Shown: positions 35,364 to 51,079 of the stretch, piece by piece
Position numbering within the stretch: position 1 is the first letter of the stretch
Layout of the letters: each line of letters begins with the position of its first letter
Assembly: GCA_021792615.1 (NCBI GenBank)
Contig: JAJYUJ010000007.1
Coordinates: 1-64,000, forward strand
Length of the DNA stretch: 64,000 nucleotides
Direction: 5' to 3'
DNA from: a bacterium
GTDB taxonomy: Bacteria > JAMCPX01
Position numbers and translations under genes: made by a program
The notes under the pieces: generated by a model
The model's input: the letters and a program-made list of their open reading frames with translations, nothing else
Told to the model about the DNA's origin: nothing
Databases searched by the model: none

Positions 35364-35456
35364 CCTGAAAAATGCAATAAGGAGGTTTACGTATTCGTTC
35401 AACCACGCGCATTGCATAAACCTCCTTATTTTACAATCGCATTTTTCGGGTTAACC
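35361..35456. repeat. Inverted-repeat element, compact form, between convergent genes
   Basis: TTAACCTGAAAAATGC and GCATTTTTCGGGTTAA form the outer arms, with an inner perfect 14-base pair AATAAGGAGGTTTA/TAAACCTCCTTATT around a 27-base loop. The stop codons of both the P-type ATPase (35361-35363) and cheB (35451-35453) lie in its arms. It is the short version of the element at 7959-8177 and probably ends transcription from both sides. Confidence 0.75.
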
Positions 35457-36545
35457 TTTTGCCCAGCGGTTGAGTTCCATAGCAATAAGATAATAGGGCA
35501 GTACCCGGTCGACCTTTCCCGTGGCTATTGCCTCCCGGGGCATGCCGAAGATAACTGCGGTCTCTTCGGACTCTGCTATCGTGTAACCTCCTGCATCTTT
35601 TATCTTTTCTATGCCTTTTTTGCCGTCATCCCCCATTCCGGTGAGAACGACTCCGGCGCACATCTTACCGAACTCCTGGGCTGCAGAGGCAAACATTTCA
35701 TTGACCGATGGTATGAATTTATCCTCTTGCCTGCGCGGTATCAATTTGAGTATCCTTTTATTGTCGAGGAACATTATCGAAATACTGTACCCGCCCGGGC
35801 ACACGAAGATCATACCCTGCCTGAGCGGCTCGTTATCTTCCGCTTCTTTGACACTGAGACTTGTATACTTGTTTAGTCTCTGTGCAAAGGTTGCCGTAAA
35901 GCCCGGAGGCATGTGCTGTGAAACGATAACACTGATCTTCATATTTTTATCCAGGCCCGATATCACCCTCTGTAATGCCGAAGGGCCTCCGGTGGAGGAA
36001 CCAATTGCGATCAACTTGAACCCGGCATAAATGCCAGAAGGCTCGTTTCCTGCGCCGGTAATCTTTACTATGGGTTTTGCCGCCGTATCTATGCCGAGAC
36101 TCAGTTTTAAATTAATATCCGCTATTCTTCTCTGGACGTTTTTCAGATTAATGTTCCGTACGTTCAGCACTTTTTTTATAACGTCCTCTTTTATCGAGTA
36201 GAGTTCCATGGACGCCCTGTTTACCGGCTTTGGAATAAAATCAACCGCGCCGAGCTCCATTGCCTTGAATACGCTTTCGGAATCCGCTTTTGAGCTGATC
36301 ACAATGGTCGGCGTAGGCTTTGTCCTCATGAGGATCCTCAGGAACGTAAATCCGTCCATGCGAGGCATTTCGAGATCCAGCGTGACAACGTCGGGGTCAA
36401 GGTCATTCAGTTTTTTCAGACCGTCCTCTCCGTCCGTAGCGGTACCTACAACCCTGATGGTACGGTTCGATTCCAGCATCGTCTTCAACGAGCGCCGGTT
36501 AAACGCCGAATCATCTATAATAAGCACCTTGATCTGATCGGTCAT
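35451..36545 (-). CDS. cheB: Chemotaxis protein CheB (methylesterase/deamidase)
   Basis: A 364-residue CheB. The N-terminal receiver has D57 (VVTLDLEMP), and the C-terminal esterase shows the catalytic Ser in IGSSTGGPSA, His in SQHMPPGFT and Asp in GMGDDGKKG. It removes methyl groups from the MCP, activated by phosphorylation from CheA. ATG 36545 overlaps the cheR stop (ATGA). It is last in the operon. Confidence 0.96.
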   Translation of the reverse strand: MTDQIKVLIIDDSAFNRRSLKTMLESNRTIRVVGTATDGEDGLKKLNDLDPDVVTLDLEMPRMDGFTFLRILMRTKPTPTIVISSKADSESVFKAMELGAVDFIPKPVNRASMELYSIKEDVIKKVLNVRNINLKNVQRRIADINLKLSLGIDTAAKPIVKITGAGNEPSGIYAGFKLIAIGSSTGGPSALQRVISGLDKNMKISVIVSQHMPPGFTATFAQRLNKYTSLSVKEAEDNEPLRQGMIFVCPGGYSISIMFLDNKRILKLIPRRQEDKFIPSVNEMFASAAQEFGKMCAGVVLTGMGDDGKKGIEKIKDAGGYTIAESEETAVIFGMPREAIATGKVDRVLPYYLIAMELNRWAKG

Positions 36546-37411
36546 TTTTGCGGCTTCCTGTAAACAAGATCGTTTTTGAGCTGTACCAGCTTGAACAGAC
36601 TGGTAATATTTATTAAAGACTCCGCATGTCCCAGCAAGAGCCATCCGTTACTGCCCAGTTTGTCATAGAATTTTTCGATAAGCTTTTTCTTCGATTCAAG
36701 ATCGAAGTATATGAGAACATTGCGGCATATAATCACATCCATCGATGAGAGCAGGTTAATGACCGTGCTGTCCATAAGGTTGATATGGGAAATCTTGATC
36801 ATATTTTTGATCTCGTCTTTTATTTTCAGCTTATCCCCGTACGGCTCGAAATATTTTTTTTTGTAATACTCGTCGGTGACCCTGAAAGAAGCATTCCCAT
36901 AGATGCCCTTTCTGGATATGGATAAAACTCTCTGACTTATGTCCGTAGCGTAGATCTCTATATTGAAGTCTTTATCTATACCGTATTCCTTTGCCATGAT
37001 CGAGACCGTATACGGCTCCTCGCCGGTGGAGGAACCTGCACTCCATATCCGCAACGATGGCCTGCTGATGTAGGACTTTTCTGCCTTTATGATCGGTATA
37101 ATTTCTTCAAAGAGCGCCTTGAGCTGCAATATTTCTCTGAAAAAGTACGTCTCATTCGTTGTGAGGAGATCGACGACGATGCTCAATTCATCTTCCCGCT
37201 CCTTGTCATATTTCAGGAAGAAGTAATAATCCTTAAAAGAATTCAGTTTTCTTATGCCCAATCTGCTCGTAAGCCTGGATACGAATATGTATTTTTGCTC
37301 ATCGGAAAAGAAGATACCGCTGTACTCTTTTATAAAATCCCTGAGTCTGCGGAAATCATCATCCTCGAGATCGACAGCCGTATTGCTTGTATGCGTCAAG
37401 GTACTGTACAT
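36542..37411 (-). CDS. cheR: Chemotaxis protein CheR (MCP methyltransferase)
   Basis: A 289-residue CheR that methylates receptor glutamates with SAM. The N-terminal helical domain (DFRRLRDFIKEYSGIFF) is followed by the methyltransferase core with SAGSSTGEEPYT, IYATDISQRVL and CRNVLIYFD. ATG 37411 lies just after the upstream stop; a second ATG at 37438 would overlap the HEAT gene by 23 bases and is equally possible. Confidence 0.95.
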   Translation of the reverse strand: MYSTLTHTSNTAVDLEDDDFRRLRDFIKEYSGIFFSDEQKYIFVSRLTSRLGIRKLNSFKDYYFFLKYDKEREDELSIVVDLLTTNETYFFREILQLKALFEEIIPIIKAEKSYISRPSLRIWSAGSSTGEEPYTVSIMAKEYGIDKDFNIEIYATDISQRVLSISRKGIYGNASFRVTDEYYKKKYFEPYGDKLKIKDEIKNMIKISHINLMDSTVINLLSSMDVIICRNVLIYFDLESKKKLIEKFYDKLGSNGWLLLGHAESLINITSLFKLVQLKNDLVYRKPQK

Positions 37412-37415
37412 AGGT

Positions 37416-39356
37416 TCAGCGATCTTCCGAATGCGCATACCGTCCGAGAACGGACAACGCTTTCTCCCTGATTTTTTGCTCCGGACCCGAAGCGAGCCTC
37501 TTCAATATGCCGTGAGAAGTCTTGTTGTTTGCCTTCCCCAGCATATAAATGACCTCCATAACAATGTCCTGATCCTTGCTTGAAAGTACTTGTTCTATCT
37601 CACCGGTACAATCCTCGACGGAAATGTCCATCAGGACCTGGAGGGCTGACAGGACAACCGCAGGCGATTCATCCCGGATGTACTTCGTCAAGATACCCTT
37701 TGCCTCACCCGTCTGCGGAGAATGCTTGAGGTGTTTGATAATTTCTATCTTCACCCATTGATCGTCGTCATTGATAAGCCATTTGACGGTATCGATAAAT
37801 TTTTCCGGTATGAGGATGGCCGTTGTCCGTACCGCTTCAATTCTTACGTCCCTGTTTTCATCGGCCAGCGCCATCTGGATGTCTTCGCCAAAGTTGTTGA
37901 GTGATAGGGTACCGATCGACGCGATAATTGCCGCGCGCACGGCAGCCTCACTGTCATTGAGCAGTGTTTTTATGTCTTCAGCCATATCTTCTTTGTAAAA
38001 GCTTGCAACGAGTTTTGCCGAGGCAAGCCGTAACAGATAATCGCTGCTGTGCACCATACCATGGATCATGACCAGCGCCTGATCCGGAATATTCTTGCCG
38101 ACCTTGACGAAGCTGTCGATCGAAGCCGCGGTTACCGCCTTATTGTCGGATCCCATCAGCTTGACCAGCAGTTTGAGACTGTGCGGATCAAGGAAGGTAC
38201 CGAAGATGCGGGCAAGGAGCACGGGGATTTCCTCAGTTTCATCCGACTCGAGGAGGTAGGATAACCCTTCCGGAGGTGCATCCGGAGAGTCCGGTAATTG
38301 AGACAGATAGAGAAGGCCTGCCTTGATCTGGGACACACTCTTGTTCCCGACGAGCAGTGCGACAACGTCAGCCCTGATGGAATCACCCCGGTCTATCAGT
38401 GCCGCCACACACGCGACGGCAAGATCGGGATCGTCGGCATATTTCAGGATCGTCCCGGGAGCGCTTTTTTCGCCGGACCAGCCGAGGATCCTGATACCGG
38501 CCTTGACCGTTGCACTGTCGACGCTCGAGAGCATTTTTTCCATGATATACGAGTCATGGATGTTCGATTGCCGTACTGAACTTCTTACAAAAGCAGCGTC
38601 CTGTTCGTTCAGGCTGTCATAGAGCTGAAGCAATGATCTTGCCGCTGCATCTCTGTTGGATCGTTTGTTGTCTTTTATTCCCTCAATAAGATAGGACGCG
38701 ACAACGGGATCATGGGTTGCACCGAGCAGGTCGAACACAGCTTTTTTGAGGAGCGGGTCTTCCATGAGAGGCACGATGTCCGCTATGGGGATCTTGAATC
38801 CTTTTTTGCCGAGATTGGCAAGGGCTTCGATGGCTGAGAAAACGATATAAATCTCTTTTTGTTTCAGGAGCCCTGTTATGGAGAGAATGACATCTTCTGT
38901 ACCGATCTTGCCGAGCGCCTCCGTAGCTGCCGTAGACAAATTCTGCTGGGGGCTCGATGTCAGTTTTATGAGAACGGGAATTACCTCGGGATCTCCTATG
39001 TCTCCCAGAACATCGACGAGAAGCTTCGATAACTCCCACTGGTCTGCATCGATCGCCCGTATAATGTGTTTGATGGCTTTTTTACCGGTTTTTGTCAGTC
39101 CTTCAACCCCGGCCGTTCTCAGCCCGGCATTATCCTGAGAATTTATTATATCTATAAAAAGACCGGTAAGTTTGTCCGGATCCTGCGCTCTCAAGAGCGA
39201 CTCCAGAGCGGTTTTCCGTACTCTGAAACTCTCGTCGCCGAGCAACACCGTAAAGAGCTCCCTGTTGTCATCGAACAGCAGGGTACCGATGCTTCCGGCA
39301 AAGGCAACCTTTTCCTCTTCAGACATACTGCCTACATCGTACCGTGTTTCCGTCAT
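37416..39356 (-). CDS. HEAT-repeat protein of the chemosensory cluster
   Basis: A 646-residue protein built almost wholly of HEAT-type repeats (for example KLLVDVLGDIGDPEVIPVLIKL, AATEALGKIGTEDVI and IEAVRTTAILIPEKFIDTV). No signal peptide or membrane helix is evident. Its place between the zinc-ribbon/receiver gene and cheR, with 4-base overlaps or short gaps, implies a structural or scaffold role in the signalling complex. Relatives of PBS-lyase/HEAT type occur in many deltaproteobacterial Che clusters, but a defined function is not known to me. Its C-terminus overlaps the longer possible cheR start. Confidence 0.82.
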   Translation of the reverse strand: MTETRYDVGSMSEEEKVAFAGSIGTLLFDDNRELFTVLLGDESFRVRKTALESLLRAQDPDKLTGLFIDIINSQDNAGLRTAGVEGLTKTGKKAIKHIIRAIDADQWELSKLLVDVLGDIGDPEVIPVLIKLTSSPQQNLSTAATEALGKIGTEDVILSITGLLKQKEIYIVFSAIEALANLGKKGFKIPIADIVPLMEDPLLKKAVFDLLGATHDPVVASYLIEGIKDNKRSNRDAAARSLLQLYDSLNEQDAAFVRSSVRQSNIHDSYIMEKMLSSVDSATVKAGIRILGWSGEKSAPGTILKYADDPDLAVACVAALIDRGDSIRADVVALLVGNKSVSQIKAGLLYLSQLPDSPDAPPEGLSYLLESDETEEIPVLLARIFGTFLDPHSLKLLVKLMGSDNKAVTAASIDSFVKVGKNIPDQALVMIHGMVHSSDYLLRLASAKLVASFYKEDMAEDIKTLLNDSEAAVRAAIIASIGTLSLNNFGEDIQMALADENRDVRIEAVRTTAILIPEKFIDTVKWLINDDDQWVKIEIIKHLKHSPQTGEAKGILTKYIRDESPAVVLSALQVLMDISVEDCTGEIEQVLSSKDQDIVMEVIYMLGKANNKTSHGILKRLASGPEQKIREKALSVLGRYAHSEDR

Positions 39357-40288
39357 TGCTCAATCCCCAGTTCTTTTTTCTTTTTCTGCACCAGCTCGTC
39401 GAGAGATTCTTTTAAAAAATCCTCCTGCTGACGTATGTGTTCTGCGATCCTTTTTTTAAAGAGCTTCTTCCCTTCTTCGAGATCTTTTTCCAGAACCTCT
39501 TCAACCATATTCTGCCGGATGCCCTGTTCAAGGACATCCTGATTGTACAGTGCAATATCGGATATAATAATGCGCGCAAGTCTTCTTGCCTTTTCTCTAT
39601 CCTGCATATCTGCCGGTGTTTGTACGAGCTCTTCTTCGTTGAACTTCTCGGTATCGCTGGTTTTCACCTCGGGCGAGGGTGATTCACTCACTCCCACACC
39701 GACCTGGGCTGCTTCCGCTACCGCGGGTGTTTCCTGAACCTCTTCCTGCCTGCTGATCAGCCTGTTTATTTTGGCTGCCAGGCTGTCCCTGATATGGTGC
39801 TTCTCTATAAAATCATCCGCGCCGTAAAGGCTCTGCGGTATGCGCTTGTAGCGTGTTTTATCGTATATCGACGCCACGAGTATGACCTTGATGCTCTGCA
39901 AACGTTTATCTTTCTTGATCAGCTCCGGGAATTCGAAGCCGAATATGTCCGGCAGTGCGACATCCACGATCACCACTTCGGGGTGGGTGTCCTCCATAAT
40001 GGAGACCGCCTCGACACCGTTCTTTGCATACAGGGGGAAGAATTTCTCCTCCCGGAGGAGCTCCCCCATCATTTCCCGCATTGAACTCGAGGGATGCGCA
40101 ATCAGTACCTTCCTTCCTTCCGCAATAACCGGCAGTTCCTCTTTCGCTCTTTCCGGAACTGGAACTGCCTTCTTCTTCAGGAGGAATATCTGTCCGCACT
40201 TCGAACATCTCAGTTTCAGGCTGTCGCCGGATATTCTGTTATCGTCCACTTTATAGGTTGTAGCGCATTGGGGGCAGCGTATGATCAT
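39353..40288 (-). CDS. Zinc-ribbon/receiver protein
   Basis: A 311-residue protein. Residues 1-38 are an MJ0042-type zinc ribbon (CPQCATTYKVDDNRISG, then CSKCGQIF). A receiver domain follows (~65-190) with the phosphoacceptor region VVIVDVALPDIFGFEF and a Lys-bearing C-terminal strand. The final ~100 residues are a charged helical tail (probable coiled coil, DLEEGKKLFKKRIAEHIRQQ). No DNA-binding or enzymatic output domain is present. It overlaps the HEAT gene by 4 bases, and the two probably act together as a CheA-driven output or adaptation module. Confidence 0.85.
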   Translation of the reverse strand: MIIRCPQCATTYKVDDNRISGDSLKLRCSKCGQIFLLKKKAVPVPERAKEELPVIAEGRKVLIAHPSSSMREMMGELLREEKFFPLYAKNGVEAVSIMEDTHPEVVIVDVALPDIFGFEFPELIKKDKRLQSIKVILVASIYDKTRYKRIPQSLYGADDFIEKHHIRDSLAAKINRLISRQEEVQETPAVAEAAQVGVGVSESPSPEVKTSDTEKFNEEELVQTPADMQDREKARRLARIIISDIALYNQDVLEQGIRQNMVEEVLEKDLEEGKKLFKKRIAEHIRQQEDFLKESLDELVQKKKKELGIEQ

Positions 40289-40295
40289 GGTACCG

Positions 40296-42410
40296 TTACA
40301 CCTTAAACATTTTTAATATGTCCTGCAGGACACTGGACTGCTTATCGAGGAGTTTTGATATCTCGTTGAGCTGGGAAACATTCGAGACGTTTTCACCGGA
40401 CGATGTTTTGATCCTTCCCAGCGAAGACATAACAAATTCGTTTGTCTTTGCCTGTTCCTGCGTTGCCTTATTAATAAAATTAACCATCTCCGAGATATTT
40501 TCTATAGCCTGGCTGATGAATTTGCTGCTCTTTGACTGCTCCTCCATTGAATTCTTCACCTGCTCGGAAACGCTCCGCATCCTCTCCGATGCTTTGGTGA
40601 TCTGTTCCGATCCCCGTGCCTGTTCCTGCGTTGCCTTGGCTATCTCTACCATCATCGTCGTTATATTGGTTATTGCGTTGGTTACTTCTTTGGAAGCCTT
40701 TGTCTGATCCTGCGTTGCCCGTGCTATCTCTCCGGACATCAGGCTCGCCTGGGAAGAACTTTCGGATATTTTCAACAATGCCGTTCCCGCGGAGTTCGCA
40801 AGCTCGCTTCCCTTCTCTACTGCTTTATTGACGGAAACTACGGAATCCTGCGCTTGTATGGATTCGGACTGGACTGCCCGTATAATGTTCGTTATCTCCT
40901 TGGTTGAAGACGCTGTCCTCTCTGCGAGTTCTTTTATCTCATCTGCGACAACCGCAAAACTCTTTCCGTATTCTCCGGACTGGGAGGCGATAATAGCGGC
41001 ATTGAGGGCAAGGAGGTTGGTCTGTGCGGTAACCTCTTCTATTACATTCAGGATCTTGCCTATATCGTCGACCTTCTGGACGAAACTGCCGATTGTTTCC
41101 GCCACATGATTCGAGGCCTCCTTGATCTGCTTCATGCCCTCTATCGTTATGTTTACGGAAGAGACCCCTTCTTGCGCGTCTGCCATAACCTTGTTCGCTA
41201 TGACAAAGGTTTCATTCGTATTGGCCTCTATTTGCTTTGTCGAGGCATCCATCTCAACGATGGATGTCGCGGTCTCGTCGGTTATCCTGAGCAGTTGCTC
41301 GACGTTGCCGGCCACCTGTTTTATCGATGCACTCATCTCTTCTATGGATGATGTTGTTTCCTCTATGGCCGAAGACAGCATCTCCACGTTTTCGAGCACC
41401 TCTTCGATACTCGACGAAAGCTCCAGTACCGAAGACGCACTCTCTGTCGATGAGTTATGCAGGGTATCGGTGTTCTTGGCTATGTCCTTTATAGATGCAT
41501 TGAGCTCGGTCATGGATGATGTCGTGTCCTCTACGGATTTTTGCTGTATCTCCGAAGACTCAAGCAGGGATACGGCGTTCTTGGTTATCTTATGCACAAC
41601 ATCCACGATGGCCTCCGACGTAGCCCGGACATTGCTCAAGACCTGTCTCAGGTTTTCCGACATGGCATTAAAAGAACCGGCAAGAAGCCCTATTTCATCT
41701 TTCGATCTCGACGGTACGGTCTGGGTAAGATCGCCCTCCGAAAGTGCGGATGCCCTCTCCGCAATCACCGGTATCTGCCCGACGATGCGCTGCACAAAAA
41801 AGAACGTCAGCACGGTACCGATAATGAAGTTTATCAGTACAATCAGAACAGCCCCGAGCATAAGCGATCTAAATTTTTTGCTGATACTGTTGAACGACAT
41901 GCCGAGATATACATATCCCCGTACCGTTTTCGACTGCCCGGACTCGTTTTGCCCGTTCAACGAAGAACTGGTTGTAACGACGTCCTTATTTATCTCCAGG
42001 AATTTTCCCGACGTGCCCAGACTGACCGTTTCACTCTTGCCTTTCGGACTCGCAAGTATCGAACTCAACTCATTGGAAAGCCCCGATTGCCTGAACCTCG
42101 ATACGAGCACATTGTCCTTTCCGTCCGTAACTACGACGTACGCGATATCCCCGTCCTTTAAGATATTATCCATGAGCTCGTTCAACAGTACTTTGTCTTC
42201 CGCAATGACGCCGAACCGTATGTTGTAAGCGAAATTTTCCGCTATCATGTCCCCCCGTTTTTTGAGCTCATCCGTAGACAGGGATCTCGTCAGGAGGAGA
42301 TAATATCCGCTGTAAACGATACTCAGTGCAATGATGCCCCAAATGATATAAAAAATAAATTTCAATCTCAGGCTGTGCCGTATATTCTGGAATTCCCCGA
42401 TAAATTTCAT
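40296..42410 (-). CDS. Methyl-accepting chemotaxis protein
   Basis: A 704-residue receptor. Membrane helices at about 17-40 and 184-206 bracket a ~140-residue periplasmic sensor of uncertain fold. A HAMP domain and a very long signalling coiled coil follow. The hairpin tip reads [30 protein letters not shown], in two parts separated by the variable ASQSGE; many receptors have EAARAGE there. After the tip the coil continues with repeated SSSQASL and ATQEQA blocks, far longer on the return strand than in E. coli Tsr. It is the only MCP in the window. Confidence 0.93.
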
Positions 42411-42952
42411 TCTTTGCCTCCTGTTTCCTGTTTTTTGTTTTTAAAAACAAGATTCTTAAATTGGACCCTTTCAGTCGTCGTCAATATCCGGTCCAGATTC
42501 AGCACCAATATGATTCTGCCCCGATCGCTGACAACGCTCGATAAATACTCCGATTCTATACCCTGAACGATCCTGGGCGGAGGTAAAACCTTTTTTGCAG
42601 GCACCCGTAAAACCTCTTTCACCCCGTCGACGATAAGCCCCGCTACTTTATCAATGACCTTTATGATAACTATCCGTAGCTTGTCCTGTGTGTCGCCGGC
42701 GGGGACCTCGAAGCGTTTTCTCATATCTATGACGGGTATAATATCGCCCCGAAGATCGATGACGCCCTCTAAAAACTCCGGGGCTCTCGGTACAGGCGTT
42801 ACCGGCATATATTTGATGATTTCGACTATCTTCATAATATCTATCGCATAAAACGCGCTGCCAATGCTTATAAGAATAAGCTGCACGCTGTCTTCCGCGG
42901 TGGATGCCGTCTTGATGTTGTTTTGTGTATTCATATCTGCCATACTGTTCAT
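42407..42952 (-). CDS. CheW-like coupling protein (1)
   Basis: A 181-residue CheW ([58 protein letters not shown]). CheW bridges receptors and CheA. A short basic C-terminal tail ([11 protein letters not shown]) follows. Its start overlaps the second cheW stop (ATGA), and its own stop overlaps the MCP start. Confidence 0.9.
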
Positions 42953-43677
42953 TTTGCCTTGAGCATGTCGGATTGCTTCAGTATTTCTTCGAGTTTCAGC
43001 AGGACAGTAAATCCACCCTTGCTGGTACTGATTCCTGAAAGGAACCGGATATCCACACTGCCGACCATGTCTGCCGATTGTATTGATCCGGCCGCCACCC
43101 TTTTTACGTCCGGTATGCTGTCTACCACGAGTCCGGTCATCGCGCCCTCGAAAGAAATCATGACAAACCTCGTGCTGGCTGTAAAATCCAAAAAGGGCAG
43201 TCCTATGCGTTTCCTTAAATCGATAACAGGAATAATTTCCCCGCGCAGGACCGTAATGCCGAGAACGAAATCAGCAGTGTTCGGTACAGGCGTTATCTCC
43301 TTTATTCTGATGATCTCCTTCACGGTACTCAGGTCTATGGCATACTCCGCCTCTCCAAGTCGGAAACAAAGCAATTCCCTGTCCTGAACATCCGGTGAAT
43401 GCTTTTTCAATTCATCCTTCGCCAGTTCCGCGAACGGCTTCTCCTCTCCCCCGGAGAGTTTCTCCGCCGGGCTGTTGTCCTCTATTTTTATCTCCTGTTC
43501 ACGGACAGCGATCTCCGGTTGCGGACTGTGCGCTTCAACTCCCGGAGCACCGGCCGCCGGCGGTTGGGCCTGCATCAGCTGCTCATGATCGGGAACTTTG
43601 TGCTCTTTATCCCCCACCTGCCGCTTCATGGCTGCTTGCTGTTCTTTTGCTTTTTTTCTCAGTTTTGAAATATCCAT
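42949..43677 (-). CDS. CheW-like coupling protein (2) with long N-terminal extension
   Basis: A 242-residue CheW whose CheW domain begins near residue 95 (CFRLGEAEYAIDLSTVKEIIRI, FVLGITVLRGEIIPVIDLRKRI). The first ~95 residues are charged, Gln/Pro-rich and probably disordered. Having two CheW proteins of unequal length in one operon suggests separate interactions, one possibly with the AAA ATPase encoded next to it. ATGA overlap with cheW (1). Confidence 0.88.
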   Translation of the reverse strand: MDISKLRKKAKEQQAAMKRQVGDKEHKVPDHEQLMQAQPPAAGAPGVEAHSPQPEIAVREQEIKIEDNSPAEKLSGGEEKPFAELAKDELKKHSPDVQDRELLCFRLGEAEYAIDLSTVKEIIRIKEITPVPNTADFVLGITVLRGEIIPVIDLRKRIGLPFLDFTASTRFVMISFEGAMTGLVVDSIPDVKRVAAGSIQSADMVGSVDIRFLSGISTSKGGFTVLLKLEEILKQSDMLKAK

Positions 43678-43680
43678 ACC

Positions 43681-44490
43681 TTATGCCAGACTTATCCTTA
43701 TATCGTCTATGATAGCCTCTATAACACGGGCGTCTATGGCGTTAAGTTCTTCCCCATACCCATACAGCAAGGCATTGTTGCAAAGGGTGTTTATCGTCCT
43801 CGGGATCCCGTTCGAATACTTGTGAATAAGTTCTACCGCAGATGCCGTAAAGAGGGGTTCTGACCTGCCCGCTATGCGGAGCCTGAACTCTATATATTTA
43901 GCCGTGTCCTCGGGACCGAGGGACCCGAGATGATATGACATGCCTATCCGCTGCCTGAATGCGGTGTAGTGTTTTGCCTGCAGCCTTTCTCTGAATTCTG
44001 TCTGGCCGATGAGGATGATCGTTATGAGGTTCATATTGTCGAGCTGGTAATTCGTCAGGAGACGGATCTCATCTATGGTATCTTTTGAAGGTATCAACTG
44101 TGCCTCATCCACAAACACGACAGGGGTAATATGCTGCTCGTAGAGTTCCGCTATCCGCTCGCTCATTTGTTCTATGATGTCCTGTTTAAAGTACTTGATA
44201 TCCTTGATGCCGAGCCTTTTCGAGATTGTTTTTAAAAACTGGGCCGGTGAAAGCCTCGGGTTTATTATGTTGACGACCAGAGAGCTGTCGTCGAGTGAAT
44301 CCATTGCTGTCCTGGATATCGTTGTCTTACCGGAACCTATATCGCCCGTCAACACGGCAAGTTCTTTTTCCTGAATCGCAAAGAGTATACGTTCGAGGGC
44401 TTCTTCATGCTGACGCGATTTGTAGAGATACCGGGGATCGGGCGTTTTGCTGAAAGGCTTCTCCTGTAATCCATAGAAACGTTCGTACAT
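43681..44490 (-). CDS. ExeA/GspA/MshM-type AAA ATPase
   Basis: A 269-residue AAA ATPase. YGLQEKPFSKTPDPRYLY opens the ExeA/MshM family, followed by Walker A (GDIGSGKTT), Walker B (VVFVDEAQLI) and a sensor region (LILIGQTEFRERL); this is the fold found in type II secretion and MSHA pilus assembly. Unlike ExeA, the peptidoglycan-binding C-terminal domain is absent. It lies between cheA and cheW with 2-3 base gaps. A role linking signalling to pilus or secretion assembly, or to ATP-driven complex remodelling, is an inference. Confidence 0.87.
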   Translation of the reverse strand: MYERFYGLQEKPFSKTPDPRYLYKSRQHEEALERILFAIQEKELAVLTGDIGSGKTTISRTAMDSLDDSSLVVNIINPRLSPAQFLKTISKRLGIKDIKYFKQDIIEQMSERIAELYEQHITPVVFVDEAQLIPSKDTIDEIRLLTNYQLDNMNLITIILIGQTEFRERLQAKHYTAFRQRIGMSYHLGSLGPEDTAKYIEFRLRIAGRSEPLFTASAVELIHKYSNGIPRTINTLCNNALLYGYGEELNAIDARVIEAIIDDIRISLA

Positions 44491-44492
44491 AG

Positions 44493-46499
44493 TTATACCT
44501 TCACCGCCTCTTCTATAAAGACCGACACATCCAGTACAAGCACAATCTCTCCCGAGCCTATGTCGGCGGCACCGGATATCCCCCTCGTACCTTTTAACAG
44601 TTTTCCGAGAGGTTTGATAACGACGTCCTGCTGCCCGACAAACCTGTCCGCCAGTATGCCTATCCAGCGCTCCCCGCTTCCGACAACTACGATATAATAA
44701 TTATCTGCTTTTTCCGGTTTCTCCGTATGAAAGTTAAAGAACCTCGGGAGCCGGATGACCGGGATAACGCTTTCCCTGAGCTTTATAACTTCTTTGTTTT
44801 CAATAATCCTTATTTCGTCCGCACCGATGGAGAGGCTTTCGTTGATGGAATTCAGCGGCACCGCATAACGCTTCCCCTCGGACTCGATAAGGAGTGCCTG
44901 TATGATTGCAAGGGTAACCGGAAGGGTCAGGGTAAACCTTGTCCATTTGCCCTCCTGCGTATCGACATCTATCATTCCACTGATGACCCGTAAGTTCGTT
45001 TTTACGACATCGAGTCCGACGCCCCTTCCCGATACCTCGCTCACATCCGATTTTGTGGAAAAACCGGGAAGGAACAGCAGGTTAAAAAGCTCTTCACGCG
45101 TAGGCTTCGCCGTATTACTCAGTAATCCTTTTTCCACAGCCTTGCGTTGTACCGAGGAGAGCGAGACACCCCTGCCGTCATCCTCCACCTCTATAAGGAC
45201 ATGGTTGCCTTTTTGGTAGGCACGAATGGTTATCTTACCCTTGGAAGGCTTGCCCGCTATGATCCTTTCGTCAGCGGGCTCGATGCCGTGATCAATCGAA
45301 TTGCGGATTATGTGCATCATGGGATCGGTCAGTTCCTCGATAATAAGCTTGTCCAGCTCCGTATCTGCCCCGTAAAATTCCAATTCTATTTCCTTCCCGA
45401 GGTCCTTTGCTATTCTTGTTGCCGTTCTCGTGAGTTTGTCGAAAAGCTGACTCAACGGTATCATTCTTATTTCAATGACCCCTGTCTGGAGATCCCGCAT
45501 TTTTCTTTCCATGTCCTTTATGGTCTTGTTGAGTTCAACCGCTATGCCTTTAAACCCTATCTCTTGCCGTATACTCTCCGCTATCTTCATAAGGTTGGTC
45601 TTCGAGAGTACGAGTTCACCGACGATATTCATGATATAATCGAGTTTGGATATATCTACCCGCACAGTCTGCGCTATGCCCTTTATCGAGGTGGTCTCAT
45701 CCAGAACCCCCCTGGCACCATTGTTCACATCAGCACTTTTCTTTTCCTCCGCAGCAACAACGGTTTGTTTTCTTATGTTTTGTATTTTTATATTTTTAAA
45801 ATCGATTCCTGCGGTCAATTGTTCTTCCCGCACCTTTGTTCCGAGAAGTATATCGAATTTTATCTCTCCTTCTTTCGCCTCGGTCGTACTGGGGAGGGTT
45901 GTAATGATTTCGCCGAAATTCTTCATCTGGGCGGTAAGGTCGGCAAGTTCTTTGTCGAAACTTAGCAGGCTGAACGAAACGTCTATTTTAAAAAGGTTGT
46001 TCTGGTCCTTGATATTCTCCCGCAATCTTGATTCTTCATATTCGGTGAGTACCGAGAGTATGTCTTTGTTTAGGGTAAGCCCGTCGAAAAGGGTATCCTT
46101 CTGTTCAGCCTGTTTGCCAATTTCGGCATCTTTCAACTGTTTGAGCAGAGGCTCCACATCCATTCCTTTGCCAAACGTGTCGGAAGATATCATGGTTCTC
46201 AGCATATCGCCCGCTGCATACAGCGTCTTTATCAGTTGATCCGTGATCGCTACCTTGCTCAGCCTGACCTTGTCCAGGAGATCTTCCATCTTGTGGCTCG
46301 TCTCCGTGATCTCCTTATATCCGAACATACTCGAGATTCCTTTTAAGGAATGAGCCGAGCGGAACAGCTCGTTGATGGTATCGGGATTCGGCTTACCTGT
46401 TTTTCTGACAGAGTCTATTTCATTAATGTCTTTGAATATCTTGTCGATTAATTCTTCCGATTCTGCAACAAACTCTTTTGCTGCCTTGTTTTGTTCCAT
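44493..46499 (-). CDS. cheA: Chemotaxis histidine kinase CheA
   Basis: A 668-residue CheA. The HPt domain carries H50 (FRSAHSLKGISSMFG). A P2-like linker region, the dimerisation helices (KLDYIMNIVGELVLSKTNLMK), the kinase core (IRNSIDHGIE, DDGRGVS, GRGVGLDVVKTNL) and the C-terminal CheW domain follow. It phosphorylates CheY, CheB and probably the receiver proteins encoded in the same operon. It overlaps neither neighbour but is separated by 2-3 bases. Confidence 0.96.
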   Translation of the reverse strand: MEQNKAAKEFVAESEELIDKIFKDINEIDSVRKTGKPNPDTINELFRSAHSLKGISSMFGYKEITETSHKMEDLLDKVRLSKVAITDQLIKTLYAAGDMLRTMISSDTFGKGMDVEPLLKQLKDAEIGKQAEQKDTLFDGLTLNKDILSVLTEYEESRLRENIKDQNNLFKIDVSFSLLSFDKELADLTAQMKNFGEIITTLPSTTEAKEGEIKFDILLGTKVREEQLTAGIDFKNIKIQNIRKQTVVAAEEKKSADVNNGARGVLDETTSIKGIAQTVRVDISKLDYIMNIVGELVLSKTNLMKIAESIRQEIGFKGIAVELNKTIKDMERKMRDLQTGVIEIRMIPLSQLFDKLTRTATRIAKDLGKEIELEFYGADTELDKLIIEELTDPMMHIIRNSIDHGIEPADERIIAGKPSKGKITIRAYQKGNHVLIEVEDDGRGVSLSSVQRKAVEKGLLSNTAKPTREELFNLLFLPGFSTKSDVSEVSGRGVGLDVVKTNLRVISGMIDVDTQEGKWTRFTLTLPVTLAIIQALLIESEGKRYAVPLNSINESLSIGADEIRIIENKEVIKLRESVIPVIRLPRFFNFHTEKPEKADNYYIVVVGSGERWIGILADRFVGQQDVVIKPLGKLLKGTRGISGAADIGSGEIVLVLDVSVFIEEAVKV

Positions 46500-46502
46500 A
46501 GC

Positions 46503-46871
46503 TTACCCGATATACCTTTTCAGGATCCCCTGCAGTTCTTCAGGCTTAAAGGGTTTGACCAGGTATTCGTTGGCTCCGAGCGCCATGCCTTTCTGCCTGT
46601 CCATTTCCGTGCCTTCGGTGGAAATGATAATGAGCGGTATGTCTTTGTATTGCTGATTTTTTCTTACAAAACTGATGAGTTCAAGGCCGTTTATATCCGG
46701 CATATTGATGTCGGTCACGATCATGTTGAAATCTACCTGCGGCAGGAGTTTGAGCGCTTCAAAGCCCGTGGCGCTCTCGTACACTTCATAACTACCATAA
46801 CTCTCTATGGCGGAAGATATGAACGCTCTCATCGTAGGAGAGTCTTCTACGATAAGTATGTTTTTACTCAT
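46503..46871 (-). CDS. cheY: CheY-like response regulator
   Basis: A 122-residue receiver domain with phosphoacceptor D54 (VTDINMPDING), acidic pocket ILIVEDSPTM and K106 (EYLVKPFKP). No output domain. It is the most typical CheY in the window and lies directly before cheA. Its ATG overlaps the stop of the DUF4388 gene (ATGA). Confidence 0.94.
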   Translation of the reverse strand: MSKNILIVEDSPTMRAFISSAIESYGSYEVYESATGFEALKLLPQVDFNMIVTDINMPDINGLELISFVRKNQQYKDIPLIIISTEGTEMDRQKGMALGANEYLVKPFKPEELQGILKRYIG

Positions 46872-48550
46872 TGTTCATCCTTTCGCTCCCTTATTATCCT
46901 TTCGAGATACGCCTTCTCCATAACGATGCTTGCCTGACTCATGAAAATCTCAAACGTCGTCATGTCCGGTATCTTCTTCTTGAGAGGTACATTATCACCA
47001 TAAAATACGGCCGCAACTCTATTCGCCGTTAAAAGGGGCACGACATAGGATTCCACAGGCCATTCCCCGCCTATCTGCCCCAAAAAATTTTTGTTGCCCT
47101 CCGTTTGTTCGGGTGCTTCTTTCAGGGACACTTTGTATTTTAAGACCTTCCCTATCAGAGAATGTTCGTCCACTTCTATTTCCATTTTTTTAACCACAAC
47201 ATTGGGATTATCAAAAAAGGCCTCGAGGCCGAATTGACCGAGTCCCTTGATCTTATTTCTTGTTACCAGGAACAGAATTCCCCTGTTCAATAACTCGCTG
47301 GCGAATCTCATGATCAAAAGGGTAACCTCTCCGGTAAAATTCGGGCTCATAAGTTCATCTATCATGGATTTCAAGGTAAGCAAACCGGGGCTCGTATCCG
47401 CGCGCTGTTCAGTCGTCTCGGGCAGGAGTTCTGTTTCGTCCTGAAATTCTTTTGTAAGCTCCTCCGTTATGTCCTGAACAAACCGGGACCCTGTATCTTC
47501 CTCGTCCGGAACGACATCCGCTCTTGGTTTGACATCCTTCATACCCGGCTTGAACGTAAAGCCCGCTTCCTGATATTGCCGGAAAAGGGTTGTTACCTTC
47601 TCCAGTATCTCCATGAATATATCGATGTCCGGAGAAGTCCTCGAGAATTTTTTCGGTTTTTTCAAATAGGCATAGACCCCGCTCAGTTTTGCCTCTTTTA
47701 AGACCTCTTCATTGTTGACACTGCTTAAAAGGATAACGGGCACCTTCATCTTCTTGTCAAGGATCCATTCCAGCAATTCCATCCCGCCCAGCATTCCCTC
47801 GCCCTTTGCTTTCGGTATGGTAAGGTCCGCTATTACCATGGGGAATCTCGGGGAATCTTTGATCGTTTCGAGATATTCATACAGTGCGTTCAAATCGGCC
47901 ATGGCCGACGTCCTGAATCCTCTCGATTCAAGACTGTCCTTGAGGAATGTCTGGGAATCCGCATTTTGATCGATAATAATGAATTCTTCCATCTCCCGGA
48001 TCTGATCTGCAAATTCGTCCTTTTGTTCTGGCTCGAACCCCCGATCTCGTCGTTTCTCATCTGACTTCCGTGCTCCTTCTATGGCAACATACTGCGGATT
48101 CAGCGGCACCGCGAGATAGCTTTCCCTCTGGGGTTTGTAAACATCCTTCAGATTTTCGGTAATTTCAAAATCGAAATTGCCCTCGGTCCATGAAAAAAAA
48201 CCGAAAATGATTCCGTTCATGTAGGTTTGTACGACCTCTTCCGCAACATCTTCGTTTACAATTTTTGATTGAATAAGAAATGATTTTGCATCGGAGGTTC
48301 CGCTCTTATCAATCTGGTTGCCCAGTTCTTCCATGAACTTGTCCTCTATAATGCCCTTCTCGTGCAGTAATCGAAGGATATCATTGGAATCGGTACTGTT
48401 TGAAGCGGAGATGATCTGGCCGTCGATGAAAACGATCTTTCCCTCTTCTCCTTTCCTTGTCAGATAGAGAATACCGGAGCGTCTGCTCAAACTGAGGATT
48501 TGGAGTATATCTCCCAGCGCCAGATCTTCAAGGCTACCAATTAAACTCAT
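46868..48550 (-). CDS. DUF4388/receiver protein
   Basis: A 560-residue protein. The N-terminal DUF4388 (PATAN) domain (GSLEDLALGDILQILSLSRRSG, then LYLTRKGEEGKIVF) is followed by a receiver-like domain around residues 190-310 (EFIIIDQNADSQTFL, VIADLTIPKAKG). A GAF-like C-terminal part (NRGILFLVTRNKIKGLGQFGLE) resembles the sensory region of PATAN proteins. The ATG at 48550 is chosen over the upstream frame because the domain starts there and AGAGGAG lies before it. First gene of the chemosensory operon; DUF4388 proteins act in surface motility regulators such as FrzS/PilG-type pathways. Confidence 0.85.
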   Translation of the reverse strand: MSLIGSLEDLALGDILQILSLSRRSGILYLTRKGEEGKIVFIDGQIISASNSTDSNDILRLLHEKGIIEDKFMEELGNQIDKSGTSDAKSFLIQSKIVNEDVAEEVVQTYMNGIIFGFFSWTEGNFDFEITENLKDVYKPQRESYLAVPLNPQYVAIEGARKSDEKRRDRGFEPEQKDEFADQIREMEEFIIIDQNADSQTFLKDSLESRGFRTSAMADLNALYEYLETIKDSPRFPMVIADLTIPKAKGEGMLGGMELLEWILDKKMKVPVILLSSVNNEEVLKEAKLSGVYAYLKKPKKFSRTSPDIDIFMEILEKVTTLFRQYQEAGFTFKPGMKDVKPRADVVPDEEDTGSRFVQDITEELTKEFQDETELLPETTEQRADTSPGLLTLKSMIDELMSPNFTGEVTLLIMRFASELLNRGILFLVTRNKIKGLGQFGLEAFFDNPNVVVKKMEIEVDEHSLIGKVLKYKVSLKEAPEQTEGNKNFLGQIGGEWPVESYVVPLLTANRVAAVFYGDNVPLKKKIPDMTTFEIFMSQASIVMEKAYLERIIRERKDEQ

Positions 48551-48699: not shown

Positions 48700-50658
48700 T
48701 TATAACGATATAAAGGTATCAGCGAATGGTTTTAGATTGCCGTCTTTTGTTAAGAAAAGTACCTGGGTTTCCTTTGAGAGGTTTTTTACCATACGGTAAA
48801 CTGCGGCTCTGTTGGCATCATCGAGCAGCATAATGGGGTCATCCATGACAAGAGGCCATGGCCACTTCTCGGCGGCAAGTTCCGAGACGGCTACAATCAC
48901 GGAGAGCATGCCCCTTTCCCGGACCGAACCCGATACATTGTTCAATTCAACTTCTCTGCCCGTATCCGTGATGCAAACGATCCTGTTGTCTGCGATCGAA
49001 ATTTCCTGAAATTTTCCGAAGGTCAGCGTTTTAAAATGGGAACTCGCAGTTGTTCCTATGAGAGACAGAATTTTGTCTTTTCCTTCCCCGATAATGTCTG
49101 CCATGCTGTTTATATTCTTCATAAAAGCCGGCACCGGCACCTGCCGGGGCTGACGGACTTCTTCATAGTGTTTTTGCTGCACCGGGGGTTCTTTTTTTTG
49201 TTGCACCGCTTCGTTCCCCGTCTTGCTGAGTTTGTTTTTCAGGCTTTCTATCTGCTGGGATATCGAGTAAGGGTCCATGCCGGACATTGCCATCGTCCTT
49301 ACTTCTTCCTGCACCGCTTCCAGATCCGATTTTAGCTTGTCCTCCCGTTGTTTGAGAATATCCGGTCCGTTCTCGGTTACTGCGGTGTTATACCTCGACT
49401 TGGCCTTTGCAAATTCCTCGAGAACCTCCCTGTACCTCTTGATGCCTTCTTTCAATGAGGCGGGCGATTCGAGTTTCATGGAGCTTATGATGCTCTTAAT
49501 AACAGAGCCTTCAATTTCATACTTATTCCTCTGTTCTTTTATCTGTTTCTCAAGTGCGGCAACAGCCACTTTCCTTTTTTTGATTTCTCCTCTTTTCCCC
49601 GCATCTTTCCAGAGGGCATATCCCATCGTACCCAGGCCGGCAAACACACCCGCCGAGAAGTACATACCCCAGGAACCTGCAAAGATTGATAAGAGGATGG
49701 GTATCACGATAAACGATAAAACCAGTCCGGCGCCTGCAATAAAAATTTTATCCTTGTAAAAGGGAGGCATATCTGCACTCACCGATTCAAACTGCGTCCT
49801 CTGCCGCTCTATCTCATCTATTTCTTTTTTTATCCTTCCTTCAAATTTTAAGTATTCATCTATCTTGGTCTCGATATCGTCGGGTAAATCCGAGAACTTG
49901 TTCAAGGTGTTTACCTGTTTTTCTATGTCCTGTAACGTCGTTTGGAGATCGTTTATGACCCTGATTTTATCCTGAACGTCCGTAATCTCCGATTCCAGTT
50001 GTTCTGCCTTATCCTGCTTCTCTGTCGCAGCAGACGCGCGTTTAAGCTCATCCTCGAGCTTTCCAATTTCCGAAAGGATCTCTTCCCCGGTCATGGCATT
50101 TTGATGCAGGTCTTCGACCGCTGCATACGACGAGGGCTCGAAGTCATTGACACCGCCGAAACCGGTGTTTACATCTCCGGTTAGGGTAAATTGCTCCGGC
50201 TCCCGGGTAATCGAAGACTCCTCACTGGGAGATGAATCCATACTGCTGTAAGGATTGATCAGGAAAAGGTCTTTGTACACATCCAGGGGTTTGAACAAAA
50301 GATCCCGTTTGAAAAATTCCCTTATCTCTTTTTTATCCTTTGAAACAAAGTCGAATTTTTTGGTCTCCTGATTGTATTTCGACAATAGTACCGCATCGGT
50401 GCTTACATCCATAAGAAGCCTGAAATTATCAGGACCGTCTCTCAGGGTAATGCCGAGTCTTGTCTCCTTTGCACCGTCGCTTACCAGTCTTTCCTGTTGC
50501 TCCCCGGTCAGGGAAAGTAAAAAGAAAATGGCATCTGCTATTGTCGTTTTCCCTTTCTCATTGCCGCCAAAAAATACATTCAACCCGTTGCTCAGCTGGA
50601 ACCGTATCGGTTCCCTGAATCTTCCGACCCCCTGAAGGATAAATTCCTTTATTACCAT
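48700..50658 (-). CDS. RecF/SMC-type ATPase with central membrane hairpin
   Basis: A 652-residue AAA_23/SMC-like protein. Walker A is split by the family pattern (GGNEKGKTT, residues 31-39), with FILQGVGRFREPI before it. A coiled coil (~195-290) is followed by two closely spaced hydrophobic segments (~303-350). A second coiled coil comes next, and the C-terminus carries Walker B (VMDDPIMLLDDANR near 605-617). A central membrane hairpin between two coiled coils is also found in the YhaN family. It lies 149 bases upstream of the DUF4388 gene and 13 bases after rplS. Function unknown; a membrane-tethered SMC-like clamp is the structural inference. Confidence 0.82.
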   Translation of the reverse strand: MVIKEFILQGVGRFREPIRFQLSNGLNVFFGGNEKGKTTIADAIFFLLSLTGEQQERLVSDGAKETRLGITLRDGPDNFRLLMDVSTDAVLLSKYNQETKKFDFVSKDKKEIREFFKRDLLFKPLDVYKDLFLINPYSSMDSSPSEESSITREPEQFTLTGDVNTGFGGVNDFEPSSYAAVEDLHQNAMTGEEILSEIGKLEDELKRASAATEKQDKAEQLESEITDVQDKIRVINDLQTTLQDIEKQVNTLNKFSDLPDDIETKIDEYLKFEGRIKKEIDEIERQRTQFESVSADMPPFYKDKIFIAGAGLVLSFIVIPILLSIFAGSWGMYFSAGVFAGLGTMGYALWKDAGKRGEIKKRKVAVAALEKQIKEQRNKYEIEGSVIKSIISSMKLESPASLKEGIKRYREVLEEFAKAKSRYNTAVTENGPDILKQREDKLKSDLEAVQEEVRTMAMSGMDPYSISQQIESLKNKLSKTGNEAVQQKKEPPVQQKHYEEVRQPRQVPVPAFMKNINSMADIIGEGKDKILSLIGTTASSHFKTLTFGKFQEISIADNRIVCITDTGREVELNNVSGSVRERGMLSVIVAVSELAAEKWPWPLVMDDPIMLLDDANRAAVYRMVKNLSKETQVLFLTKDGNLKPFADTFISL

Positions 50659-50671
50659 TGAGTCTTATGCG

Positions 50672-51079
50672 TTATTTCGTATCGCCCGCAACCGGCTGCC
50701 CGGCATCTGCTTCCTGTACAAGGAGTTCCGTGTCTTTCATCCGCTTCAGCCTGCTCGATTTTGAACTCAGCCCTCTTAAATAATATAACTTCGCTCTTTT
50801 GACCTTCATTCTCTGAACAACATCGACCTTCTCTATGAACGGGGAGTAAAGCGGAAAAATCCTCTCGACACCGACGCCGTAAGATACTTTCCTTATGGTG
50901 AAGTTCGTGTTAATCCCCCCGCCGCTTATACCGATCACCACGCCTTCGAATTGCTGGACCCTTGTCTTATCGCCTTCTTTGTATTTGGTAAACACCTTTA
51001 CCGTGTCGCCTGCCCTGAAATCTATCCGTTTCTTTTCACTGCCCGTTATCTCTTTTTCCATGAATGTAAGATTGTCCAT
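50672..51079 (-). CDS. rplS: Ribosomal protein bL19
   Basis: A 135-residue bL19 of the large subunit, near the bridge with 16S r[28 protein letters not shown] and [17 protein letters not shown]-x-KV are diagnostic. The C-terminal extension of about 20 residues is longer than the usual ~115-residue form. Preceded closely by trmD, as in most bacteria. Confidence 0.97.

Follow-up and report, generated by a model that had tools for sequence, protein, structure and literature searches.

A chemosensory operon of the Geobacter beta-group/Esn type with a receiver-RomX protein, and a proposed link to MglA-dependent pilus polarity

Chemosensory clusters of the beta group, containing cheA, cheW, cheB and cheR and no mcp, were described in Geobacter (including G. 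lovleyi), Myxococcus and others; the authors also mention, as unpublished, that mutants in cluster 5 of G. sulfurreducens have a matrix phenotype (Tran et al., 2008; PMC2577667). A transposon sequencing (Tn-Seq) study found that GSU2220 (the CheW EsnB), GSU2221 (an ATPase) and GSU2222 (the CheA EsnC) are needed for growth on electrodes, with defects of -2.4, -2.1 and -2.8, respectively, and that deletion of esnB or esnC did not impair growth on Fe(III) oxide (Chan et al., 2017; PMC5585712). Myxococcus xanthus has the uncharacterised cluster Che8 (MXAN_4751-4759), ordered CheY8b-CheA8-CheW8b-CheW8a-two genes-CheR8-CheB8-CheY8a and also devoid of mcp (PMC3945109). Here we analyse a stretch of 64,000 nucleotides (the window; assembly GCA_021792615.1, contig JAJYUJ010000007.1, positions 1 to 64,000) from a bacterium of the GTDB lineage JAMCPX01, in which a minus-strand run of eleven tightly packed open reading frames (ORFs; 35451-48550), overlapping or only a few bases apart, encodes a chemosensory system. 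This kind of cluster is already known: it is a non-flagellar module of the Geobacter beta-group/Esn type. One of its proteins joins a receiver to a RomX domain, and on balance we lean, by a small degree, to an array whose phosphorylated CheY (CheY~P) signal would steer MglA-dependent polarity and pilus activity.

The operon shares with Esn the order CheA-ATPase-CheW (GSU2222-2221-2220), and its CheA is orthologous to that of the Geobacter clusters. It is a variant rather than a strict member of the group, since it includes a methyl-accepting chemotaxis protein (MCP) of 64H length where beta-group/Esn clusters have no mcp; the receptor of the Esn system, EsnA, is of the GAF type and belongs to class 40H, and in Geobacterales the two cheW genes are often separated by an additional CheY-like gene. 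Compared by locus tags, Che8 apparently follows the same plan as the distant clusters described below and is probably of the same type, although cheA8 and cheW8b lie too close together for an ATPase gene to fit in. An earlier note on this DNA, made from the sequence alone, could name no characterised system with this set of genes; the core is that of GSU2222-2221-2220 (PMC5585712) and the layout that of the beta group (PMC2577667), so that a largely identical described cluster does exist in a model organism.

One pointer to an output is the zinc-ribbon/receiver protein. Its C-terminal ~80 residues match M. xanthus RomX (PDB 8zna) by phmmer (E=3.6e-14 over 77 of 95 residues) and by the profile version of the search (E=6.5e-17), and Foldseek also retrieves 8zna (37% identity, TMt 0.73). 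Conversely, when the RomX segment was searched against the 10,299 ORFs of all loci, it matched zinc-ribbon/receiver proteins only, from this family and ten others, the weakest at an E of about 5e-4. Judged by these matches, the protein carries a predicted RomX domain, the counterpart of the MglA-stimulating part in Myxococcus, where the GTPase MglA determines at which cell end pili form. The zinc ribbon matches that of AgmX (E 1.4e-5) and its CxxC pairs are kept in 25/25 orthologues; the acid pair of the receiver is replaced by H/P in this lineage.

RomX of M. xanthus accelerates nucleotide exchange by MglA, an effect enhanced by the receiver protein RomR, and MglA-GTP stimulates pilus extension (PMC9481161); the Frz chemosensory system is linked to MglA by RomR (PMC3441718). 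A chemosensory system, a receiver protein, RomX, MglA and MglB are present both in that circuit and here, where the MglA of the genome matches that of M. xanthus at E=6.5e-100 and mglB (PF03259) adjoins mglA. The two differ in that FrzE is a CheA with its own receiver, whereas the window CheA has none, and in that RomR and RomX are separate proteins in M. xanthus but share one chain here, inside the che operon.

The other accessory receiver protein begins with DUF4388 (PF14332), the PATAN domain. It is joined to a receiver (PF00072) in one protein, as in the PATAN-CheY-like pilus regulators; PF14332 also matches in Synechococcus elongatus. Its tail is described as GAF-like because the orthologue from locus L140 has a C-terminal GAF_2 match. 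The AlphaFold model of the protein is unusable (pLDDT 33). In Synechocystis, Tax1/PixG, Tax3 and PixE likewise combine a PATAN-receiver protein with a chemotaxis-like system and regulate type IV pili; the window protein differs from them by its GAF-like tail and, in this lineage, by a degraded receiver site. Synechocystis PATAN-CheY proteins have been tied to type IV pili, PixE being reported to interact with PilB1 (as cited in PMC7690835), and in some genomes mglA or mglB has a PATAN gene in its vicinity (PMC4316618). Eight further PF14332 matches occur in the genome, on contigs C32, C37, C46, C62, C66 and C71 (G000), none of them a contig with the main pilus motor genes. Thus, the two receiver proteins that had been described as lacking output domains carry PATAN plus a GAF-like tail in one case and a RomX domain in the other.

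With regard to the phosphorelay, the Hpt histidine of CheA is present in all complete orthologues, and the acid pair, phosphoacceptor D, T/S and K of CheY are conserved in 34/34. The acid pair of the PATAN-receiver protein is Q/N here, with D, N or E at the phosphoacceptor position among relatives, and many distant orthologues retain the pair. Since the acid pairs are lost in the PATAN and zinc-ribbon receivers and the other sites are intact, CheY and CheB are likely to be the phosphate carriers. The two accessory receivers were rejected as canonical phospho-receivers in this lineage on account of that loss, and look like docking receivers.

Based on these features, an MCP-CheW-CheA array, adapted by CheR and CheB, would phosphorylate CheY and CheB, and CheY~P would act through the HEAT-repeat protein and the two adaptors with degenerate receivers. 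The zinc ribbon-receiver-RomX protein, as a one-chain counterpart of RomR/RomX, would promote MglA-GTP at one pole, and the PATAN-receiver protein may target the pilus motor or MglA/MglB; jointly, these outputs would set the place and time of type IV pilus extension and hence of surface attachment. The AAA ATPase may use ATP to assemble or position the CheA/CheW array, which is the least certain step. Taken together, the RomX and PATAN domains favour MglA-dependent pilus polarity as the best-supported output. Type IV pilus genes, for which the earlier note had advised looking, are represented in the genome by PilB and PilT. Of its suggestions of pili, surface motility or development, pili and surface behaviour stand as the best candidate and development is a weaker rival.

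The module is conserved well beyond this organism. Four genera of the family share an identical gene order wherever the contigs reach far enough, and the identity of the ATPase within the family (73-99%) is on a par with that of CheA and the MCP. A CheA profile search over 386 genomes (orthologue threshold >500 bits) added 20 genomes from 16 families, all outside this phylum, with the plan PATAN-REC (the PATAN-receiver protein), CheY, CheA, AAA, CheW, (CheY-like), CheW, (MCP), zinc-ribbon/receiver, HEAT, CheR, CheB. Clusters cut off by contig ends being left out, the HEAT gene is present in 14/14 of these distant clusters, PATAN-REC in 15/16, an AAA gene immediately downstream of cheA in 13/18 and the zinc-ribbon/receiver gene in 12/16. 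In the CheA tree the family groups with several AAA-bearing clusters, the deeper forks being weak. CheA has a strong match in each of the 16 Geobacterales genomes tested, and 11 of the 12 neighbourhoods read show the whole plan except for the zinc-ribbon gene, present in six of those 11. The same order, which the earlier note had proposed to search for, was therefore found in the family, in 16 other families and in Geobacterales. With about 20 outside families keeping the arrangement for the most part, it is no product of chance.

Among the latter, Trichlorobacter (Geobacter) lovleyi SZ and Pelobacter propionicus DSM 2379 were assigned by plasmids at 100% identity. The T. lovleyi order is PATAN-REC, CheY, CheA, AAA, CheW, CheW, HEAT, CheR, CheB, with no zinc-ribbon/receiver/RomX gene; an HD-domain gene, the mark of the Geobacter alpha group, was found neither in the window cluster nor among the scanned flanking genes of T. 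lovleyi. P. propionicus has just PATAN-REC, CheA and CheW left between der and leuS (L150:2990-7363), where T. lovleyi has the full set; judged by its gene content this is a decayed copy of the module, and the reduced set agrees with the absence of P. propionicus from the published beta-group list. A search of 141 Geobacterales genomes with the PilA of G. sulfurreducens did not reveal that species. Several distant clusters have a GAF protein and then a second CheY downstream of cheB, and in one Geobacterales locus (L140:14564-17939) these are followed by a 713-residue multihaem c7-type cytochrome. Scanning genome contigs with the ATPase alignment gave family members only, the patterns being too narrow; scanning viral contigs for the HEAT protein gave no match, and no plasmid was found by tblastn with CheA, the ATPase and the zinc-ribbon protein to carry such a cluster, the CheA of a Deferribacter megaplasmid being that of a different system.

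Several points weigh against steering of pilus polarity through MglA. The path from CheA to MglA, the protein interactions and the phosphotransfer are inferred from sequence. The zinc-ribbon/receiver/RomX gene is missing from 4/16 distant clusters and from 5/11 complete Geobacterales clusters and is thus not obligatory for the module. PilT is found in 30/30 module-bearing genomes and is also common without the module (17/20 module-free genomes), so that pili are always available as a target in carriers yet are no specific associate of the module. The search for MglA covered this genome only. Finally, the Geobacter phenotypes on record are electrode colonisation and the unpublished matrix remarks (PMC2577667), and Chan et al. 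propose a cyclic di-GMP (c-di-GMP) output (PMC5585712).

A wider proposal is put forward more tentatively, as something possible rather than expected: that this is a widespread module with its own MglA activator, in which the zinc ribbon-receiver-RomX chain replaces RomR/RomX and a receptor signals straight to Ras-like control of pilus polarity in many lineages outside Myxococcota, with the AAA ATPase as an array component foreign to textbook chemotaxis. The route from a chemosensory kinase to the MglA switch is still disputed in Myxococcus, and a receiver-RomX fusion inside a che operon is a compact, testable wire. If true, it would provide a mechanism for the Geobacter Esn/beta-group cluster, for which there is so far only an electrode phenotype, and for the uncharacterised Che8, as well as a place in a pathway for the ATPase that already scores in Tn-Seq.

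This ATPase is predicted to work with CheA and CheW because of the like Tn-Seq defects of GSU2220, GSU2221 and GSU2222. It matches TIGR03015 over its whole length with 234.1 bits, under the curated cut-off of 324.5, and its Walker A and Walker B motifs are invariant in 32/32 orthologues. By these scores it is assigned to the GspA/ExeA/XrtA-associated AAA_22 family, as a distant cousin of the ATPase of XrtA/PEP-CTERM systems, with which it shares Walker A/B; TIGR03015 is the closest named family. A sequence search found no relative of known structure. It had been regarded as an ATPase of secretion or pilus type, and a pilus motor or secretion ATPase was rejected in view of the AAA_22 assignment, the sub-cut-off score and the absence of a predicted membrane segment. 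A second AAA_22 ATPase of the genome (L041:8344-9420; G000:C25), 40% identical to the che one, lies beside a TPR protein and near a glycosyltransferase and an asparagine synthase, in what looks like an XrtA-type exopolysaccharide locus.

The main rival, a matrix or biofilm switch in which the module controls exopolysaccharide or c-di-GMP and not pilus polarity, as proposed for Esn, appears unlikely but has to be taken seriously. The Esn genes are needed for electrode colonisation and not for growth on Fe(III) oxide or fumarate, and the Esn set includes the diguanylate cyclase EsnD (PMC5585712); the matrix phenotype of the cluster 5 mutants (PMC2577667), the kinship of the ATPase with an exopolysaccharide ATPase and the surroundings of its second copy agree with such a switch. 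However, the conserved module holds no GGDEF, PilZ or polysaccharide gene, and its conserved accessory domains, PATAN and RomX, point to the pilus motor and MglA. Co-regulation of pili and matrix is common, so both readings may hold; the matrix/electrode phenotype of Geobacter could lie downstream of pilus polarity.

The constancy of the HEAT gene, the most constant accessory gene of the module, is an argument for a developmental or stress pathway like that of M. xanthus Che7, in which CheY~P would bind the HEAT-repeat protein as main effector. Che7 also has a HEAT-repeat protein in its operon, Cpc7, which binds CheY7 (as cited in PMC11514114). Such a pathway is considered improbable, since it leaves the conserved PATAN, RomX and ATPase genes unexplained and the Che7 gene set differs (PMC3945109), no PATAN or RomX gene being known there.

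Ordinary chemotaxis to a flagellar motor, as the complete CheA/W/Y/R/B set might suggest, is scarcely credible and is refuted for this genome (2.54 Mb, 99.55% complete; its close relatives are metagenome-assembled) unless FliM lies in the missing 0.5%, as FliM was not found in it or in seven searched relatives (0/8 of the family) and the operon is its only CheA/CheW system, no further CheW-domain protein being present outside it. FliM occurs in 6/30 module-bearing and 7/20 module-free genomes, and being missing from most carriers it indicates that the output is not flagellar in most of them, in line with the control of something other than flagellar switching anticipated for this operon.

The features of the operon are listed in Table 1; the eleven genes, their order and their tight spacing are as first described, and each domain name then given is backed by Pfam.

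Table 1. Genes and domains of the chemosensory operon (positions in the window)
Feature	Coordinates	Strand	Evidence
PATAN (DUF4388)-receiver-GAF-like response regulator	46868..48550	-	Pfam PF14332 E 1.1e-22, PF00072
CheY, intact single-domain receiver	46503..46871	-	PF00072 E 1e-27
CheA: Hpt, H-kinase_dim, HATPase_c and CheW domains, no receiver	44493..46499	-	Pfam
AAA_22 ATPase, GspA/ExeA/XrtA-associated kind (predicted)	43681..44490	-	PF13401 E 5.4e-21
CheW1, extended N-terminus	42949..43677	-	PF01584 E 4.9e-34
CheW2	42407..42952	-	PF01584 E 1.4e-35
MCP: HAMP and MCPsignal	40296..42410	-	PF00672, PF00015
Zinc ribbon (MJ0042; Zn_ribbon_4)-degenerate receiver-RomX domain protein	39353..40288	-	PF13717, PF00072, RomX homology
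Predicted RomX domain, residues 225-311 of the zinc-ribbon/receiver protein	39353..39616	-	phmmer and Foldseek vs PDB 8zna
HEAT-repeat protein (HEAT_2)	37416..39356	-	PF13646 E 1.2e-47
CheR methyltransferase	36542..37438	-	PF01739 E 2.2e-50
CheB methylesterase	35451..36545	-	PF01339 E 2.9e-60, PF00072

The DUF4388 gene starts at the ATG at 48550, i.e., residue 41 of a longer GTG ORF. The start of cheB is most likely at 36545, where it was placed because of an ATGA overlap with cheR, though its ORF stays open to 36644. The MCP has two predicted transmembrane segments (13-41 and 179-213) followed by HAMP and a long signalling hairpin of 224+224 residues about the tip, a length that would suit class 64H; its periplasmic region has no Pfam match. 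It is one of four MCPs in the genome. Two adjoining genes beside recO (L151:6819-11881; G000:C21) encode large MCP-like proteins of 842 and 846 aa that lack HAMP and presumably feed the CheA of the operon.

Between rplS (L19) and the che operon, the window encodes a Rad50/SMC-like ATPase that has a membrane segment in its middle (48700-50658 and 50672-51079, both on the minus strand). A Rad50/SMC-like gene occupies that position in two genera of the family; a phosphofructokinase gene takes its place in a third genus (G006).

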